From: a virus
IMG/VR virus record: IMGVR_UViG_3300006318_000005
Location: 1 to 30,074 of that record
Strand: one strand, 5' to 3'
DNA length: 30,074 nucleotides
A program made the position numbers and the translations under genes. Positions 1-29,968 of this stretch are shown piece after piece. The notes under the pieces were generated by a model. The model did no database searches. It was not told the origin of the DNA and was given only the letters and a program-made list of their open reading frames with translations. Positions within the stretch are counted from its first letter, which is position 1. Every line of letters begins with the position of its first letter.

Positions 1-54
1 ACCCTGTAGAGATTCAACCGCCCCTCCCCTTCTGAGACTGTGCGACAATGTTTC

Positions 55-204
55 ATGGCGTCCGACCTGCCAGACCCGCGACACGATCTTGCACTACTCG
101 AAGCCCATTCCGCCGCGATCAAGACGCTCCTGCTCCGCGTCGCACAACTGGAACAACGGATCGCCGGACTGGAATTTGATTCCGATCAAACCACGCGCCA
201 CTAG
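55..204 (+). CDS. small coiled-coil protein (49 aa), tentative
   Basis: A short rightward reading frame starts at ATG 55 and ends at TAG 202-204. The product has a strong heptad-like pattern (LALLEAH, IKTLLLRV, LEQRIAGLEF), so a single coiled-coil helix is likely. No function can be assigned. It has no good ribosome binding site and lies antisense to a competing leftward frame (94-225), so at most one of the two is probably real. If the genome is circular, a promoter-like pair at 30008-30037 on the same strand would lie about 90 bases upstream, which favours this frame slightly. Confidence 0.38.
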   Translation: MASDLPDPRHDLALLEAHSAAIKTLLLRVAQLEQRIAGLEFDSDQTTRH

Positions 205-1900: not shown

Positions 1901-2542
1901 TCACGCGACCACCCGCCGCCGATCGTCGCCGGTCATGCCGACCACGTCGCACCATCCTACTAACCGCGACATGAGCCGATCGTCCTGCATTTGATCACCA
2001 ACGGCGGACGGCGTCAGGTTACTGGTCCAGATCGTCCGGCGTCCCGCGTCCCGCCGCTGTTCCGCTAATGCCAATAAGGTCCGCCGCGTGTAATCGGTTG
2101 CCGTGTCCCGTTCTGCCCCCAAATCATCTAAGACCAATAGCGGAGCCGTCACCACCGGCCCCATATATTCCCGATCCGATCCCCCGCTTGGCTGCAACTG
2201 GACGAGTAACCACGGCACCCGCCGGAAGGTTCCCGCGCGCCGTTTGCAGAAGTGATCATTTAAAATAGAACACGCCAGCCGGGTTTTCCCGGTCCCGATC
2301 GATCCGCACAGATACAGATCGCGCCCCGTTGGGTTCTCAATATTCCGTAACATCCGCTTTGCTGCCGCCAACGCGTGCCGATAGGTTCCGCCCCAATTAT
2401 CCAGACTGGCCGATCGAAACTCTGCTGGCACACCATCCCCGAACCGGTGCGCTTTCACCCAACAATCGCACCGCTGTACCCGCGCGACGCCCTCGCCGTC
2501 CACCACGTCGATCCAGCCTGTGCCCCTGCAGGAGTTACACAC
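1901..2542 (-). CDS. DnaC-like AAA+ helicase loader
   Basis: This 213-aa AAA+ ATPase resembles DnaC/IstB-type helicase loaders, which place the replicative helicase at the phage origin. An N-terminal zinc-ribbon-like segment (CNSC then CDCW) precedes the ATPase. Walker A is GSIGTGKT at residues 80-87, Walker B is LLVLDDLG with aspartates at about 139-140, and IWTSNL is a sensor-1-like strand. GTG 2542 overlaps the replication initiator by 8 bases and has GGGGG just upstream. The open frame extends to 2605, but the longer start would give a 71-base overlap. Its position directly after the initiator gene is standard for phage replication modules. Confidence 0.85.
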   Translation of the reverse strand: MCNSCRGTGWIDVVDGEGVARVQRCDCWVKAHRFGDGVPAEFRSASLDNWGGTYRHALAAAKRMLRNIENPTGRDLYLCGSIGTGKTRLACSILNDHFCKRRAGTFRRVPWLLVQLQPSGGSDREYMGPVVTAPLLVLDDLGAERDTATDYTRRTLLALAEQRRDAGRRTIWTSNLTPSAVGDQMQDDRLMSRLVGWCDVVGMTGDDRRRVVA

Positions 2543-3362
2543 GATCGCCCCCGTAATCGACCGCCGTGTCGTAGTCCCGCCGCGCCGCTGTTGTGACCGT
2601 GCCACCCGCGACCGCCACCGGACGCGGCGTTCGCGCCTGTTCCAAATACTTTTGGAACGTAGTCTCGTCCCGGATTAACCAGTCGAGGGTCGCCGTCCAC
2701 TGTGGATGTTTCCCCGTGCCAGGAGCCCGACACCACGCCTGGGAATTGAGATAGGCGATCACGATCTGCCAATCGCCGACGTCCGGATAGGCTATTAACC
2801 GTTTCCGCAATAACGCCGCCCGCGACGCCGTGACCTTTTGCACCTGCGGGATCGGACTGGTGACAGTCTCATTCCAGACTGCGACCACCGCCGCTGGCGG
2901 GATCCGTTCCGCTTCGTTCCCTTCCGTTCCCTTATATTCCTTTCCCTTATATTCCTTTCCCTTCCCCGCGTCACTTGTACGCACGACCGCGACGTCCCCG
3001 TCCCCTAACCGCGACGTCCCCGTCGCACTCTGCGACAGATCCGACGCCGGAAACACCGACGCGGGTTCCTCTTTACGTGGTCGCTGATGCACCAGAAACC
3101 GCGGAATCGCGATCAGTTTCACCCCGTCCACCTCGTACCGGTCGATAAATCCCGCCGCGGCCAGCTCGTCTAACACCTGGCTAAAATCCAAATCATCATA
3201 GGGTAGAATCTGAGCCTTCAACCGCTTAGGCCGATCTGCCGCCCGTCCCTCGCGATCAACACAACAGAACAATCCAATGAACGCCAACCGCGCGATCGGG
3301 TTCAGTTCTGCTAACTCTTCATGGAGAAAGAGATCCGGTTTAATCGTTCGAATCCGTGGCAC
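2535..3362 (-). CDS. phage replication initiator with winged helix and DnaD-like C-terminus
   Basis: This 275-aa protein begins with a pattern typical of phage replication initiators (RIRTIKPDLFLHEELAEL, RLAFIGLFCCVDREGR, RPKRLKAQILPYD), a winged-helix DNA-binding domain in residues 1-95. A charged linker at about 120-155 contains KGKEYKGKEYKG. The C-terminal part (VAVWNE, WQIVIAYLNS, WTATLDWLIRDETTFQKYLE) resembles the DnaD-like tail that contacts the helicase loader, encoded just downstream. GTG 3362 overlaps the exonuclease stop by 23 bases and has GGGG upstream. The linker DNA carries two 17-bp direct repeats and an AT-rich tandem repeat, a possible origin inside the gene as in the lambda O gene. 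Confidence 0.82.
   Translation of the reverse strand: MPRIRTIKPDLFLHEELAELNPIARLAFIGLFCCVDREGRAADRPKRLKAQILPYDDLDFSQVLDELAAAGFIDRYEVDGVKLIAIPRFLVHQRPRKEEPASVFPASDLSQSATGTSRLGDGDVAVVRTSDAGKGKEYKGKEYKGTEGNEAERIPPAAVVAVWNETVTSPIPQVQKVTASRAALLRKRLIAYPDVGDWQIVIAYLNSQAWCRAPGTGKHPQWTATLDWLIRDETTFQKYLEQARTPRPVAVAGGTVTTAARRDYDTAVDYGGDRV
2929..3024. repeat. candidate replication origin: iteron pair plus AT-rich tandem repeat
   Basis: Within the linker of the initiator gene, two exact 17-bp direct repeats (core CGCGACGTCCCCGTC) lie at 2986-3002 and 3008-3024, spaced 22 bases apart. Next to them are two exact tandem copies of the AT-rich 15-mer CCCTTATATTCCTTT at 2929-2943 and 2944-2958. Iterons beside an AT-rich tract inside the initiator gene is the arrangement of the lambda origin. 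The repeats may instead only reflect a low-complexity protein linker. Confidence 0.4.
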
Positions 3363-5844: not shown

Positions 5845-6030
5845 CTAAAACTTGCCAGGGATCCGCCGCTGGACTAGGTCGCCGCCGCCGTCGTCGCCGT
5901 CCCACTTCTGCCCCGTTTTCGATATTTTCGACCCGGTCTCGATCGTTTTGACCGCGTCACGTTGCCTGTACGGCCACCCCATCGATCGCCGCAACCCCTC
6001 GCACCCCGACGATCTAGAACAATCGCCCAT
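5845..6030 (-). CDS. possible 61-aa ORF across the dispersed repeat
   Basis: In the gap between the winged-helix gene and the small membrane gene, a frame runs from ATG 6030 to a stop at 5845 and translates the repeat as GWPYRQRDAVKTIETG. The same frame stays open across the repeat copies at 13448 and 17135 (GWPYSGRDAVEISKSG and GWPYSERDAVGIVENG). It may be a decayed or very small gene, or chance. No strong ribosome binding site is seen. Confidence 0.2.
   Translation of the reverse strand: MGDCSRSSGCEGLRRSMGWPYRQRDAVKTIETGSKISKTGQKWDGDDGGGDLVQRRIPGKF
5906..6007. repeat. dispersed intergenic repeat, copy 1
   Basis: This copy starts TTCTGCCCCGTTTTCGA, contains GACCGCGTCACGTT, CTGTACGGCCA and GATCGCCGCAACCCCTCGCA, and ends CCCC. 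It fills the gap upstream of the small-membrane-protein cluster. It matches copies at 13448-13530 and 17135-17216, with about 18 extra bases in its middle. Each full copy lies just upstream of a leftward gene. Confidence 0.85.
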
Positions 6031-7666: not shown

Positions 7667-8061
7667 TCCTGCGATCCAAATAACCGCGACGCTTGATCAG
7701 TTGTTAAACATTCGCCGGTCAATACATGGATCCAGGCGTCAACAATTGTGTGCGCGTGGTCCCCTGGCGTTTTGATCTGATCATGCGCGCAGATCTCCGC
7801 CGCATTCTCCGCGGTCCGGTACGCTTCCGCGCGCCACGTTTGCCGGTTGAAATGCAACGCCAACGCCGCCGATCGGAAATAGTGATCGCGCGCATCGTCC
7901 GGCAGATTCTCCCAGGCTGTCGGTTTTGTAAACTGCAGCAAATTAACCTGATCGATGATCGAAATATGTTTCGCGAGATCTTCCACCACGCGCCGATCAA
8001 CCACTTCCGCGGCGTCGCCATGCGGCCACAGTTTCGGCAGTTGTCGAACTAGCCGCGTCAT
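7663..8061 (-). CDS. hypothetical early protein (132 aa)
   Basis: ATG 8061 overlaps the excisionase-like stop as ATGA, so the 11-codon extension to 8094 is probably not used. The product is soluble and mostly helical, with no cysteine-rich or membrane segment except C-residues in EICAHD and TGECLTTD. I recognise no family. Its place between the excisionase-like gene and recombination genes suggests an early DNA-metabolism or host-takeover role. Confidence 0.7.
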   Translation of the reverse strand: MTRLVRQLPKLWPHGDAAEVVDRRVVEDLAKHISIIDQVNLLQFTKPTAWENLPDDARDHYFRSAALALHFNRQTWRAEAYRTAENAAEICAHDQIKTPGDHAHTIVDAWIHVLTGECLTTDQASRLFGSQE

Positions 8062-8261
8062 AACTTCCGCCGCCCGATCTGGTTCTCGATCCACAACGTC
8101 AACCGGGACTCCGGCACCCGGATCGCGTGCCCCACCCGAATCGACGGGATCGCGTCCTGTTTAATGAGCCGATACGCCTGGGACCGCGTAATCCGCAGAA
8201 TCGCCGCCGTTTCCGGAACCGTAAACAACCGCGCCGGTTCGTTGATCGGGTTATTTCTCAC
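8058..8261 (-). CDS. xis: excisionase-like HTH protein (MerR/HTH_17 fold)
   Basis: This 67-aa protein has a compact winged helix: LFTVPETAAILRITRSQAYRLIKQDAIPSIRVGHAIRVPESRLTLWI, the pattern of excisionase and helix_turn_helix_17 proteins. GTG 8261 overlaps the Cro-like stop as GTGA. As second gene of the leftward early operon it could act as Xis on attP, where four CGCAACG boxes lie at exact 10-bp spacing (10879-10915). A purely regulatory role is the alternative; another protein of this fold is encoded at 27436-27651. Confidence 0.72.
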   Translation of the reverse strand: MRNNPINEPARLFTVPETAAILRITRSQAYRLIKQDAIPSIRVGHAIRVPESRLTLWIENQIGRRKL

Positions 8262-8521
8262 GCGCGCGCCTGATGATCCGGAAACAGGGAATCCGCCGAC
8301 GTCGCCAACACCCGCGCGATCCGTTCCCGCGTTGATCGATCCGGACGCAGTCGCCCGATCTCGATCCGGCTGATCTGGTATTGCTCCAAATCACACACGA
8401 TCGCTAATTGTTTTTGTGTCAGCCCGCGCCGCTTGCGAACTTGGCGAATCTCACAACTAGCTATCGATTGACCGGTTTTGATCTCTTTTTCCGGGCGTGG
8501 CGCAAACACTCCGCTATCCAT
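8258..8521 (-). CDS. Cro-like XRE-family repressor
   Basis: The 87-aa protein has an XRE helix-turn-helix (EIRQVRKRRGLTQKQLAIVCDLEQYQISRIEIGRLRPDRSTRERIARVL) after a 17-residue N-terminal extension. It is the first gene of the leftward early operon, opposite the CI-like gene, so a Cro role is likely. The extension (VFAPRPEKEIKTG) matches the C-terminus of the CI-like protein (VFTPRPEKDIKAG). The promoter -10 box ends only 8 bases before the ATG, so the transcript is probably leaderless or nearly so. Confidence 0.82.
   Translation of the reverse strand: MDSGVFAPRPEKEIKTGQSIASCEIRQVRKRRGLTQKQLAIVCDLEQYQISRIEIGRLRPDRSTRERIARVLATSADSLFPDHQARA
8471..8512 (-). repeat. inverted copy of the repressor tag segment (with 8879-8920)
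   Basis: These 42 bases, read leftward, match 34 of 42 bases at 8879-8920 read rightward, with a 17-base identical core (CCACGCCCGGAAAAAGA). In the Cro-like gene they encode the N-terminal tag; in the CI-like gene they encode the last 14 residues. Confidence 0.85.
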
Positions 8522-8529
8522 AACCGCGG

Positions 8530-8558
8530 ATTATAGGCGCGCATATTTTCGGAGTAAA
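8530..8558 (-). promoter_or_regulatory. early leftward promoter
   Basis: Read leftward, TTTACT (8558-8553) and a perfect TATAAT (8535-8530) are separated by 17 bases. The -10 box ends 8 bases before the Cro-like ATG, leaving almost no leader. A perfect 6-bp inverted repeat (8568-8582) sits 9 bases upstream of the -35 box. Confidence 0.75.
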
Positions 8559-8567
8559 CAACTAAAT

Positions 8568-8582
8568 ATCTGTCTAACAGAT
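8568..8582. promoter_or_regulatory. operator-like palindrome in the immunity region
   Basis: ATCTGT, a 3-base spacer CTA, then ACAGAT form a perfect inverted repeat between the divergent repressor genes. Its position between both promoters suits binding by the Cro-like and CI-like XRE proteins. Flanking CTAAA and TTTTTAG extend the symmetry loosely. Confidence 0.6.
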
Positions 8583-8604
8583 CTTTTTAGTGTTTGCATA
8601 TTCT

Positions 8605-8638
8605 TTGCTTGGTTTCCGACAGTCTTTATAGGTAAAAT
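8605..8638 (+). promoter_or_regulatory. candidate rightward repressor promoter
   Basis: TTGCTT (8605-8610) and TATAGG (8627-8632) are 16 bases apart; TAAAAT at 8633-8638 is an alternative -10 box. The ATG at 8648 follows with no Shine-Dalgarno sequence, so the repressor mRNA is probably leaderless, as from lambda PRM. The exact boxes are uncertain. Confidence 0.45.
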
Positions 8639-8647
8639 ACGCCCTAG

Positions 8648-8923
8648 ATGCTTATCGAGTGGCACGTCGGCGAAGTCATTAGAAAATTACGCCAACATCA
8701 TAGGCTTACCATTTCAGACCTGGCGCGCGATTCCGGCGTGTCGGTTTCATCAATTCAAGCCATTGAAGCCGGACGGAAATTTAAAACGACCACGCTGGAA
8801 AAACTGGCGGACACTTTCGATACCACGATCAACGAGTTATTCCGCCAGGTTCCACCCACAATGCACATCCCCGATCGCGAAGTGTTCACCCCACGCCCGG
8901 AAAAAGACATCAAGGCCGGATAG
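8648..8923 (+). CDS. CI-like XRE-family repressor (short)
   Basis: The 91-aa protein has an N-terminal XRE helix-turn-helix (VGEVIRKLRQHHRLTISDLARDSGVSVSSIQAIEAGRKFKTTTLEKLADTFDTTINELF) and a short C-terminal tail ending VFTPRPEKDIKAG. It has no protease-like or dimerisation domain, so SOS autocleavage as in lambda CI is not expected. It is the first rightward gene of the immunity region and precedes the PAS-type regulator. The tail is nearly the same peptide as the N-terminus of the opposed Cro-like protein. Confidence 0.82.
   Translation: MLIEWHVGEVIRKLRQHHRLTISDLARDSGVSVSSIQAIEAGRKFKTTTLEKLADTFDTTINELFRQVPPTMHIPDREVFTPRPEKDIKAG
8879..8920 (+). repeat. repressor tag segment, CI-like copy
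   Basis: This is the rightward member of the inverted pair described at 8471-8512. It encodes the last 14 residues of the CI-like protein and lies just before AGGAG, the ribosome binding site of the next HTH gene. Confidence 0.85.
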
Positions 8924-8934
8924 GAGAAAATAAA

Positions 8935-9660
8935 ATGTCATCGTCGTTGTCAGAAATTCGCTATCACCTGGGCGACATCATCCGCCAGGTCCGGATCGGT
9001 CGCGGATTGCGACTCGATCAGCTTGCCGCCGCCGCGAAGGTTTCCATAGACAAACTGTCCGATCTGGAACAGCACGGATCAGACTTGCACTTATCGGATC
9101 TGTTGTCTCTGGTAAAAACGCTAAAATTTGATCTGTTCGAAGCGTACGACGCGATCGAACGATCGCACTATCGCGCGAACGTTTACGCGCCAAAACTGTC
9201 GGTCGCGCCCTTCATTAACACCAAAGCCCCGACCGCGACGCTACTTCTGGAACTTGATCGCGACATGGTGTTACTCCGTGGCGAGATCCTGCAGGAACAC
9301 TTGATGTTGTTTCCGCAATCGCGCCTGGATCCCTATCTTGGATCGAATGCCTGGTCGAACATGATCAATCCAGACTTCTACGCCGCCATTCGCGCGAACG
9401 TCTTGGCGACGTACGACACAACCCGCGAACAATCAATGTCCTATGATCGCGTGTTGCCGTTTTCCGCCGGTCGCGCCTATCAGCACGACATCCGATTTAC
9501 GCTGAACGCCGACACGCAGACCGTTACAGCAACCACGTATCTGCTGCCGACCGCCGCGCAATCGACAACCGATTTCGAATGCTGCCGGAAGTATTCAAAT
9601 TGCGTGGAATGTTTTACAGCAACGGAACAGATGGCACCCGTTCGAACTCGAAAGGCGTAA
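8935..9660 (+). CDS. HTH-PAS-like regulator with C-terminal cysteine cluster
   Basis: The 241-aa protein has an XRE helix-turn-helix in residues 5-70 (EIRYHLGDIIRQVRIGRGLRLDQLAAAAKVSIDKLSDLEQ), a linker, then residues about 98-206 that read like a PAS fold: TATLLLELDRDMVLLRGE, a helical part with NAWSNMINPDFYAAIRANVLATYD, and paired strands HDIRFTLNADTQTVTATTYLLP. Four cysteines (216, 217, 223, 226) follow in a short tail. AGGAG lies 8 bases before ATG 8935. As partner of the CI-like repressor and integrase it may sense a small molecule or redox state to set the lysogeny decision; the fold call is by eye. Confidence 0.65.
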   Translation: MSSSLSEIRYHLGDIIRQVRIGRGLRLDQLAAAAKVSIDKLSDLEQHGSDLHLSDLLSLVKTLKFDLFEAYDAIERSHYRANVYAPKLSVAPFINTKAPTATLLLELDRDMVLLRGEILQEHLMLFPQSRLDPYLGSNAWSNMINPDFYAAIRANVLATYDTTREQSMSYDRVLPFSAGRAYQHDIRFTLNADTQTVTATTYLLPTAAQSTTDFECCRKYSNCVECFTATEQMAPVRTRKA

Positions 9661-9663
9661 CCC

Positions 9664-10833
9664 ATGCCACAACACAAACGCGGACGCGGAGAAGGCACGA
9701 TCCACAAGATCCGACCGACCTTATGGATGGGACGGATCAGCCTACCAAACAACACCCGCCGATCGGTGTACGGAAAGACCCGCGCCGCCGTGGTTCAAAA
9801 ACTGCGCGATCTCACGGTGCAGCGCGTCACCACGGGATCGACCGCACCAGGCACGGCGACCGTTGCCACGTTGATCGATCAGTTTCTCGACAGCAAACGA
9901 CCCACCCTCCGCCGGTCGAGCTTTCAAACGTACGAATCGCTGCTCCGGCAGCACGTCGCCCCGCTGATCGGCAGTCTTCGCGCCGCGGACCTGGATTCGG
10001 TCGCCATCGATCGCACGTTCCGCGATCTGCAAACGTCCGGCGCGACCGCGGCCACCGCAAAAAACGCGCGCAAACGTTTGTCCGCCGCGTTCCGGCACGG
10101 CATCAAGAAAGGCCTAGTCGCCCGGAATCCCGTCACCGACTCCGATCCGATTCGCCACCAGGCACCAGAAATGGCGATCTATACCGAAGACCAGATCGCC
10201 CGCCTGTTTGCCGCGACCGCCGGATCGCCGCTTCGCGCTATGTTTTACCTGGCCGCACTGTGCGGACCCCGCGCCAGCGAACTACTTGGCTTGACCTGGT
10301 CGCATATTGATCTACACGCGCGCACCGCAACGATCGCCGCGCAACTCTATATCGAAACGATCGGCGATTCGACCACGTACGAACTCCAACCGCTGAAGAC
10401 CAAAAACAGCCACCGGACGATCGCCTTGCCCGATCTACTGGTTCCGCTCCTGCAGGAACGCCGACAACTCCAAAACGAGGCCCGCTTGCGCGCCGGTCGC
10501 GACTGGATCGCGCCGGTCGCTGATCTGGTGTTTACGATGGACCGCCCCGCGCCGCACGGACCCGGAAGGCCCGGACGCCCCGTTCGCCGCGATCGCTTTC
10601 GGAAGATCTACTACCACCACCTAAACGCCGCGAACCTGCACCGGCTGCCGCTACACGCTCTGAGGCATACCGCCGCTAGTCTTTACCTTTCGAAAACTCA
10701 AGACGTCCATTCCGTGTCCCGCATGTTGGGACACTCCGGGATCAATATTACGATCGATACGTACGGCCACCTGCTCCGCGGACGACAACACGATAACGCC
10801 GCCGCCGTGAACGCGATCTTCGCGACCATCTAA
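9664..10833 (+). CDS. int: tyrosine recombinase integrase
   Basis: The 389-aa protein has the standard three parts: an arm-binding N-terminus (residues 1-60, GEGTIHKIRPTLWMGRISLP), a SAM-like core-binding domain (about 65-155, TLIDQFLDSKRPTLRRSSFQTYESLLRQHV split over two helices) and a catalytic domain with R203 (GPRASELLGL), H331 and R334 (HALRHTAAS), H357 (LGHSG) and nucleophile Y367 (TIDTYGH). It starts 3 bases after the regulator gene, so it is expressed with the immunity genes. attP follows directly downstream, with matching arm-site pairs on both sides of a tRNA-derived core. Confidence 0.95.
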   Translation: MPQHKRGRGEGTIHKIRPTLWMGRISLPNNTRRSVYGKTRAAVVQKLRDLTVQRVTTGSTAPGTATVATLIDQFLDSKRPTLRRSSFQTYESLLRQHVAPLIGSLRAADLDSVAIDRTFRDLQTSGATAATAKNARKRLSAAFRHGIKKGLVARNPVTDSDPIRHQAPEMAIYTEDQIARLFAATAGSPLRAMFYLAALCGPRASELLGLTWSHIDLHARTATIAAQLYIETIGDSTTYELQPLKTKNSHRTIALPDLLVPLLQERRQLQNEARLRAGRDWIAPVADLVFTMDRPAPHGPGRPGRPVRRDRFRKIYYHHLNAANLHRLPLHALRHTAASLYLSKTQDVHSVSRMLGHSGINITIDTYGHLLRGRQHDNAAAVNAIFATI

Positions 10834-10842
10834 CCGCAAAAA

Positions 10843-10864
10843 GTAAACCAATTGTAAACCAATT
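10843..10864 (+). repeat. left integrase arm-site pair
   Basis: Two exact tandem copies of GTAAACCAATT (10843-10853, 10854-10864) begin 10 bases after the integrase stop. An identical pair lies at 11104-11125, beyond the attP core, in the same orientation. Confidence 0.8.
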
Positions 10865-10917: not shown

Positions 10918-11012
10918 TTAACCCGTGTAACGTGTTGTGGTTTATGCACTTAGACGAGAACCGCCAATGTTTCCGGGTTCGCGCGATACGCCCAAATATG
11001 CTAGAGTCTCTA

Positions 11013-11051
11013 CCCCAAAGGTCGCGGGTTCAAATCCCGCCCCCGCAACCA
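11013..11051 (+). other. attP core: 3' half of tRNA-fMet gene
   Basis: The core includes AAGGTC, a T arm with stem GCGGG/CCCGC and loop TTCAAAT, then CCCCGCA, A and CCA. AAGGTC, the GGTTCAAATCC T loop and the CCCCCGCAACCA end match bacterial initiator tRNA. The 5' half of the tRNA is absent, so this is not a tRNA gene. Integration would restore the host tRNA. Confidence 0.78.
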
Positions 11052-11096: not shown

Positions 11097-11103
11097 GGGA
11101 AAA

Positions 11104-11125
11104 GTAAACCAATTGTAAACCAATT
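11104..11125 (+). repeat. right integrase arm-site pair
   Basis: Two tandem copies of GTAAACCAATT, identical to those at 10843-10864, lie 52 bases beyond the attP core. Confidence 0.8.
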
Positions 11126-11211: not shown

Positions 11212-11283
11212 ATCTGGTACCGCTTTCTATTTCTGCTATAACTGCACTAACTAAAAGACTTATCGGCTCGACTAATGCCGGCG
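11212..11283. repeat. 72-bp direct repeat, copy at the end of the late operon
   Basis: This segment matches 29881-29952 in the same orientation with 2 mismatches in 72 bases. It lies 6 bases beyond the stop of the last late gene; the other copy lies 45 bases before the first late gene. It has no strong hairpin. Read leftward, one frame is open in both copies (PALVxPISxLVSAVIAEIESGTR). Confidence 0.95.
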
Positions 11284-13129: not shown

Positions 13130-13436
13130 GATCCGCGGGACTGGTTGACGTCGGACCATGCGCGACAATGTCATAGGGATCGCCCAACCGCCGCCGAAGA
13201 TATCGCGCGAGATCTTCCAGTTTCGCCACCCGTTCCGAATGCGTGATCGAAAAATCCCACGCGAGATCGTCCGGATGTAAACTGTTCTTACTCCGCCCCG
13301 CCGCCCCGTCCGCCGCGGACGTCATCCGGACATCAATTCCGGATCGTTCCGACCAGTCGCACACATGCCGCAACACCGGGATCAGCTCCGGATAGACTCG
13401 ACGCATTCGAACCGCCGCTTTAAACCGCAACATCAC
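13101..13436 (-). CDS. endolysin, M15-type D,D-/L-Ala-D-Glu peptidase
   Basis: The 111-aa protein has the M15 zinc-peptidase signature: RMTSAADG, a SLHPDDLAWDFS block with H54 and D61, then YDIVAHG and DHVHVE with H103 and H105 as ligands. Phage members cut peptide cross-bridges of peptidoglycan. It lacks a cell-wall-binding domain and a signal peptide, so release would need the holin encoded just upstream. The start is GTG 13436 or the adjacent ATG 13433, with AGGCGG upstream. A dispersed repeat precedes it. Confidence 0.85.
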   Translation of the reverse strand: MMLRFKAAVRMRRVYPELIPVLRHVCDWSERSGIDVRMTSAADGAAGRSKNSLHPDDLAWDFSITHSERVAKLEDLARYLRRRLGDPYDIVAHGPTSTSPADHVHVEADHA

Positions 13437-13447
13437 CGATCCGCCTG

Positions 13448-13530
13448 TTCTGCCCCACTTTTGGAAATTTCGACCGCGTCACGTCCGCTGTACGGCCATC
13501 CAACCGATCGCCGCAACCCCTGGCACCCCG
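13448..13530. repeat. dispersed intergenic repeat, copy 2
   Basis: This copy fills the gap between the holin-like gene and the endolysin. It runs from TTCTGCCCC through GACCGCGTCACGT and GCTGTACGGCCATCCAACCG to CACCCCG. It is most like the copy at 17135-17216, and its TTCTGCCCC half resembles the coding copy at 25411-25444. Confidence 0.88.
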
Positions 13531-17117: not shown

Positions 17118-17134
17118 TCGCTCCGATCCGTCTC

Positions 17135-17216
17135 TTCTGCCCCATTTTCGACAATTCCGACCGCGTCACGTTCGCTGTACGGCCATCCAACCGATCGTTG
17201 CAACCCCTCGCACCCC
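17135..17216. repeat. dispersed intergenic repeat, copy 3
   Basis: This copy fills the gap between the tape measure stop and the hub gene start. It shares GACCGCGTCACGTTCGC, TGTACGGCCATCCAACCGA and GCAACCCCTCGCACCCC with the other copies. Confidence 0.88.
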
Positions 17217-25307: not shown

Positions 25308-26005
25308 GCCCCGCCCTCCCCTGTTAAGAAATGCTCATGTAGCCGTTGACGCCGTCGCCGAATATCGGTCCTGGAATCGCCCCCAGGATCCGACACTGGA
25401 TCCGCGTCCTGTTCTGCCCCGTTTTTGGAATCTTCGACCGCGTCTTGTGCTGCCGCCTGGTCTTTTGTCTGGCGATACGCCGCCACTGTCGCCCGTGCTT
25501 CCGTCACCGTCGCCGACGTGTCCGGATAGGCTGGATTTACGACGACACTTACGTCCAATAATTCCACCGACTCAAGTACCCGCAACGGCAGATCGCCATC
25601 CGTCGCCGGATCCACCCATCGATCGCCGCCGTCATGTGGAAGAAACGCAAAACTCGATCCGCCCAGGTCGCCGCGTTCACACACCGCCAAGACATGATCG
25701 CCGATCGGTCCCTCCGGGACGCTGACGCTATATTTCAACCCTTGCGGCGTCACGTCGATCGCACACGTCCCGGACCGCGTCGATCCAATCACCCAGTTGA
25801 GATCATGGTTAAACGTCGCGACCACTGGCCCATCATTCCGACTCTCAAACGCCGACGGACTGATCCGTTCGCGGTAGACGCCGCCGATCGTGGTTTCCTG
25901 GTCGAAGATCGCCGCGTAGCCTTCAATCGTCCGCGTCTTCGTTGCGGACCGTGTCGCCCGCGTCCGCTCATCCGCGACCATGCGCCGTTCTGGTTTTGCC
26001 GTCAT
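25304..26005 (-). CDS. HK97-type prohead protease (S78) with repeat-derived tail
   Basis: The 233-aa protease has the family blocks RTIEGYAAIFDQET, FNHDLNWVIGSTRSGT (catalytic H), GDLGGSSFAFLP (catalytic S) and LLDVSVVVNPAYPDTSATV. It matures the capsid by removing the delta domain. After residue about 185 the tail DAVEDSKNGAEQDADP is encoded by a segment (25411-25444) that matches the dispersed intergenic repeat. ATG 26005 overlaps the portal stop as ATGA. Confidence 0.92.
   Translation of the reverse strand: MTAKPERRMVADERTRATRSATKTRTIEGYAAIFDQETTIGGVYRERISPSAFESRNDGPVVATFNHDLNWVIGSTRSGTCAIDVTPQGLKYSVSVPEGPIGDHVLAVCERGDLGGSSFAFLPHDGGDRWVDPATDGDLPLRVLESVELLDVSVVVNPAYPDTSATVTEARATVAAYRQTKDQAAAQDAVEDSKNGAEQDADPVSDPGGDSRTDIRRRRQRLHEHFLTGEGGA
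25411..25444. repeat. dispersed repeat fragment inside the protease gene (copy 4)
   Basis: These 34 bases (GTTCTGCCCCGTTTTTGGAA and TCTTCGACCGCGTC) match the first half of the intergenic repeat, closest to copy 2. Here it lies in frame near the protease C-terminus. Confidence 0.75.
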
Positions 26006-29858: not shown

Positions 29859-29879
29859 GGGTTAGCTTGTCGCTAACCC
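29859..29879. promoter_or_regulatory. perfect hairpin upstream of terS
   Basis: GGGTTAGC, loop TTGTC, then GCTAACCC form an 8-bp perfect stem 24 bases before the terS ATG and next to the 72-bp repeat. There is no T tract, so it is not an obvious terminator; an operator, packaging site or leader structure is possible. Confidence 0.55.
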
Positions 29880-29880
29880 C

Positions 29881-29952
29881 ATCTGGTACCGCTTTCTATT
29901 TCTGCTATAACTGCACTAACTAAAACACTTATCGGCGCGACTAATGCCGGCG
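29881..29952. repeat. 72-bp direct repeat, copy upstream of terS
   Basis: This segment is the second copy of 11212-11283 (70 of 72 bases identical). Read leftward it lies in the terS leader and may include late promoter elements. Confidence 0.95.
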
Positions 29953-29968
29953 GATTTTTGGCAATAAG

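Follow-up and report, generated by a model that had tools for sequence, protein, structure and literature searches.

Two opposed HTH regulators in an uncultured viral genome have the same 47-bp DNA segment at their coding ends, in opposite orientation. The record, a virus of 30,074 bases, was analysed whole and is called the window below. The repeat is real and well beyond chance. We consider it likely that it arose by a local inverted duplication within an ordinary divergent CI/Cro-type lysogeny switch, and that the peptide tag it encodes has been tolerated and has drifted about neutrally. The duplication is reconstructed from the sequence of one genome, and its history is a proposal.

The left arm (8472-8518, minus strand; DSGVFAPRPEKEIKTG) covers codons 2-17 of the Cro-like gene, and the right arm (8873-8919, plus strand; DREVFTPRPEKDIKAG) covers the last codons of the CI-like gene and adjoins its stop codon. 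According to a repeat search and a script, the arms are identical at 39 of 47 nucleotides (83%) in inverted orientation, and a spacer of 354 nt separates them. The peptide read from both is VF(A/T)PRPEK(E/D)IK(T/A)G. Their longest identical stretch is a 17-nt run that starts in phase 0 in both ORFs, with one copy over the PRPEK codons of the Cro-like gene (8484-8500, minus strand) and the other at 8891-8907 (plus strand). An earlier note on this DNA had counted 34 matching bases in 42, with 17 in a row; the first figure is correct for the 14 codons it covered, and the run is confirmed at these positions. Such a run is unremarkable for arms with 8 mismatches in 47 (P = 0.14).

When scored without gaps at +1/-2, the arm pair reaches 23 and is the top inverted match within 8000-9700. 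In 100 dinucleotide shuffles of that region the mean score was 12.7 and the highest 20, and a chance match was rejected because the observed score exceeds them all. In a self-comparison of the window the pair has E = 8e-7 and ranks under several direct repeats. It is the sole non-overlapping inverted pair of at least 40 bp and at least 80% identity in the window, and no such inverted pair was present in any of nine control phages. An assembly chimera, which would be expected to produce identical copies, was rejected by inference, since 8 of the 47 bases are not the same in the two arms.

The setting would be that of a temperate phage with HK97-type head genes, and matches to PHROG families include terminase, portal, protease, capsid, tape measure, DnaC-like and replication initiation proteins. 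The Cro-like regulator (87 aa; 8258-8521, minus strand) heads the leftward early gene series and matches HTH_31 (6e-11), with its HTH at residues 24-77. The CI-like regulator (91 aa; 8648-8923, plus strand) heads the rightward series with the integrase and matches HTH_3 (2e-12), with its HTH at residues 11-64. Both ORFs are credible genes because these Pfam matches lie above the cut-off, while the names CI-like and Cro-like are putative and rest on gene layout. The two genes share a divergent control region (8522-8647). On one side lies a tyrosine integrase (9664-10833, plus strand; Phage_integrase 1e-20, phrog_1 2e-60). On the other are an excisionase-like HTH_17 protein that comes after the Cro-like gene (8058-8261, minus strand; HTH_17 1e-11, phrog_66 8e-9) and the replication initiation and DnaC-like proteins (1901-3362). 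This is the layout of a divergent CI/Cro-type module, and the switch would be expected to operate in the ordinary way, through HTH dimers that bind intergenic operators. A third HTH protein (241 aa; 8935-9660, plus strand) follows the CI-like gene. The tag is absent from this gene itself, and the C-terminal part of its product had no match in Pfam, PHROGs, NCBIfam or the phage records searched.

A predicted sigma-70-like promoter of the Cro-like gene (8558-8530; TTTACT, 17, TATAAT) ends 8 bases before the ATG, and for this reason the Cro-like mRNA may be leaderless. Boxes resembling -10 elements lie close to the ATG of both regulators (8522-8560 and 8609-8648, the CI-like one read by eye); judged by its sequence, the CI-like mRNA may be leaderless as well. 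Just beyond the integrase, a stretch resembling the 3' half of a tRNA (about 11010-11051) lies between the two copies of a perfect 26-bp direct repeat (10839-10864 and 11100-11125). In Rfam this stretch gave a weak tmRNA match under the cut-off. This arrangement is probably attP with integrase arm sites.

Among known systems, a divergent CI/Cro-type module such as that of Thermus phage Riverbug (PQ109080) has in common with this locus the divergent regulators, the integrase on the repressor side and an excisionase-like gene behind the Cro-side regulator. The locus described here differs in three respects: a 47-bp inverted duplication links the coding ends of both regulators, the CI-like protein has just 91 aa and lacks a LexA-like part, and a third HTH protein follows whose C-terminal part is without matches. 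The literature searched on phage repressors sharing peptides and on dispersed phage repeats did not contain this arrangement among the matches listed.

The earlier note had suggested that a whole unit of tag and HTH domain was duplicated and inverted. The inverted duplication stands for the 47 bp, but the HTH domain was not part of it. Similarity between the two loci ends at the arm ends, and the DNA of the HTH regions scores below the shuffle maximum in every pairing: 21 against 26 for the Cro-like gene and the start of the third gene, 21 against 28 for the Cro-like and CI-like genes, and 20 against 24 for the CI-like and third genes. At the protein level the HTH domains do exceed their shuffles, with scores of 54 (maximum 40) for Cro-like and CI-like, 47 (maximum 41) for Cro-like and third, and 63 (maximum 44) for CI-like and third. 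The pair on which a unit duplication depends, the Cro-like and third proteins, has the lowest of the three scores. These values point to a real but generic kinship among the three HTH domains, and duplication of the whole unit was rejected on both grounds. The note also placed the tag directly ahead of an HTH domain in both genes; this holds by position only, as in the CI-like case the tag is followed by a stop codon and the next HTH has a start codon of its own. What the two genes have in common is best read as a DNA stretch and not a kept peptide.

To find relatives of the locus, we queried viral_contigs and a phage collection with the CI-like, Cro-like, third HTH and integrase proteins, and also searched at the DNA level. 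These queries returned distant HTH or integrase matches or none, and no relative spanning the locus; a metallophosphoesterase query found no relatives. The capsid query retrieved three near-identical fragments (L015, L016 and L017; 99.5-99.96% identity over the main matches), none of which contains 8400-9000. In L017, 41 bases absent from the window (40-80 of that fragment) link the window's start to its end. Because of this bridge the genome would close or be permuted, and we take the window to be a nearly complete genome, circular or permuted.

Other duplications are present in this genome. A 72-bp direct repeat of 97% identity lies beside the attachment region (11212-11283) and upstream of the terminase (29881-29952). 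L017 is without the terminase-side copy, 30 other bases (202-231) standing in place of 29874-29953 of the window, and the element therefore appears to come and go. A dispersed family of direct repeats (13436-13529, 17123-17216, 5946-6010 and 25399-25444; 85-88%) has three intergenic copies and one piece within the coding end of the head protease gene. In total, the window has six pairs of at least 40 bp and at least 80% identity, one of them inverted, compared with 0 to 3 per control phage and none inverted, the controls being few and non-random (nine phages taken from hit lists after one of ten fetched was excluded, with Giles represented by 50,000 of its 53,746 bases).

An inverted copy is the reading we favor because the match of the arms lies beyond shuffles, the frame is the same and similarity stops at the arm ends, and because the genome contains other short duplications, one of which, the 72-bp copy, is absent from L017. 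One regulator gene would have received at its end an inverted copy of 47 bp taken from the end of the other. Since the copy lies in frame within both ORFs, each protein would have gained or kept the same flexible extension of 15-16 residues, at the C-terminus of the CI-like protein and at the N-terminus of the Cro-like protein. Either gene may have been the donor: 16 of the 20 matches listed for the Cro-like protein, out of 153 records, start at residue 16 or later, and 4 of the 20 listed for the CI-like protein, out of 97 records, extend to residue 85 or beyond, so that both extensions are mostly outside the region common to relatives.

The copying step was probably a template switch during replication or repair, which we put no more firmly because the arm spacing exceeds that of published cases. 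In two such reports, template switching at inverted repeats in yeast coding DNA is associated with arm homogenisation and spacer inversion (PMC8604942), and template switches occur at quasipalindromes of E. coli (PMC7202029). These cases share with ours an imperfect inverted repeat in coding DNA that alters proteins. They differ in scale, with arms of 7-16 bp against 47 bp here and screened spacers of 70 bp or less against 354 bp (PMC8604942). They also involve one gene where there are two here, and the present case is known from sequence, the event being unobserved.

A different view gives the shared peptide a function as a linear motif: a degradation tag or docking site, as raised in the earlier note, through which one factor would act on both regulators. 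The common partner could be an antirepressor or a protease, for example; the motif would have spread by the same inverted duplication and then been kept by selection. The location of the peptide is compatible with this. The tag lies outside the HTH domain in both regulators. In the structure model of the CI-like protein (mean pLDDT 71), residues 7-66 form a helical bundle and residues 67 to 91 are unstructured, with tail blocks at pLDDT 52-59. The confidence of the Cro-like model (pLDDT 50) is too low for use. The tag is thus predicted to be disordered in the CI-like protein, on the one usable model.

The differences between the copies, however, are those expected from neutrality. Over 15 codons the arms have 8 base differences, distributed 3, 1 and 4 over codon positions 1, 2 and 3, and 5 amino-acid changes; neutral simulation predicts 5.2 changes, with P(<=5) = 0.60. 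Under omega values of 0.05, 0.1, 0.2 and 0.5, the probability of at least 5 changes is 0.001, 0.021, 0.098 and 0.437, so that with only 8 changes the test has little power from omega 0.2 upward. Strong purifying selection on the peptide (omega of 0.1 or less) is unlikely because such values yield at least 5 changes in about 2% of simulations or fewer, and some or weak selection on the tag is possible. The 12-codon core VFxPRPEKxIKxG does contain only three changes, all mild, with a BLOSUM P of 0.08-0.09 for a core picked post hoc.

The earlier note had also proposed looking for the tag in other phage repressors. With degenerate patterns, no HTH gene was matched in viral_contigs or genome_contigs. 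The pattern PRPEK(D/E)IK occurred in one stretch of viral_contigs, outside any HTH gene; the long gene there is an integrase on the other strand, and the stretch was rejected as a relative for that reason. A relaxed pattern gave no match in viral_contigs and 10 in genome_contigs, none of them in an HTH protein, judged by eye on up to 140 residues per frame. Such pattern searches miss diverged forms, and they may exclude the window's own record or ones very near it. No candidate partner was seen either. These results lend no support to a conserved docking or degradation tag, and we regard a functional motif as unlikely; on the preferred explanation, an inverted copy with an extension that was tolerated, the tag probably has no function.

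The repeat could instead act as DNA, as an operator pair or as a looping or hairpin element around the divergent promoters, with the peptide as a by-product. The arms do lie on both sides of the control region, and AGTGTTTGC of the left arm is found again between the genes at 8589-8597. Yet the right arm carries AGTGTTCAC in its place, and the 9-mer AGTGTTTGC alone is a weak signal, with 10 sites at no more than one mismatch in the window against 4.7 expected, and 1 of 100 shuffles also reaching 10. Elsewhere in the window the 47-mer matches at no more than 25 of 47 positions. Between the genes there are short palindromic arms (8564-8573 and 8577-8586), but the longer intergenic dyad is no better than shuffled sequence, 175 of 300 shuffles reaching its score. 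We therefore find a role as DNA improbable.

Least probable of all is an invertible switch, in which recombination between the arms would turn around the 354-bp control segment together with its two promoters. Such a flip would yield a 161-aa protein with the CI-like HTH fused in frame to the Cro-like HTH, while the promoters swap gene series. The arms are mutually in frame, and both products of a crossover would have open frames (161 aa and 17 aa, as judged by lengths only). Exact identity, however, extends over only 17 bp within 83% overall, no recombinase site was recognised in the arms, and no inverted copy was seen, the three relatives not extending over the locus. We find this reading very doubtful. 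If true, it would be a switch with a two-headed HTH protein and a promoter swap, in which lysogeny control is changed by DNA inversion.

The practical weight of the repeat is small unless a function of the tag or an inversion is shown. On the preferred reading, an inverted duplication within an ordinary switch, its meaning lies in how shared peptides may originate. A peptide common to neighbouring proteins can be the trace of an event in the DNA rather than a conserved motif, which calls for caution when such peptides are interpreted. In a single step, a short inverted copy can equip two antagonistic regulators with the same extension, and by this cheap route linear motifs could arise simultaneously in both proteins of a pair.
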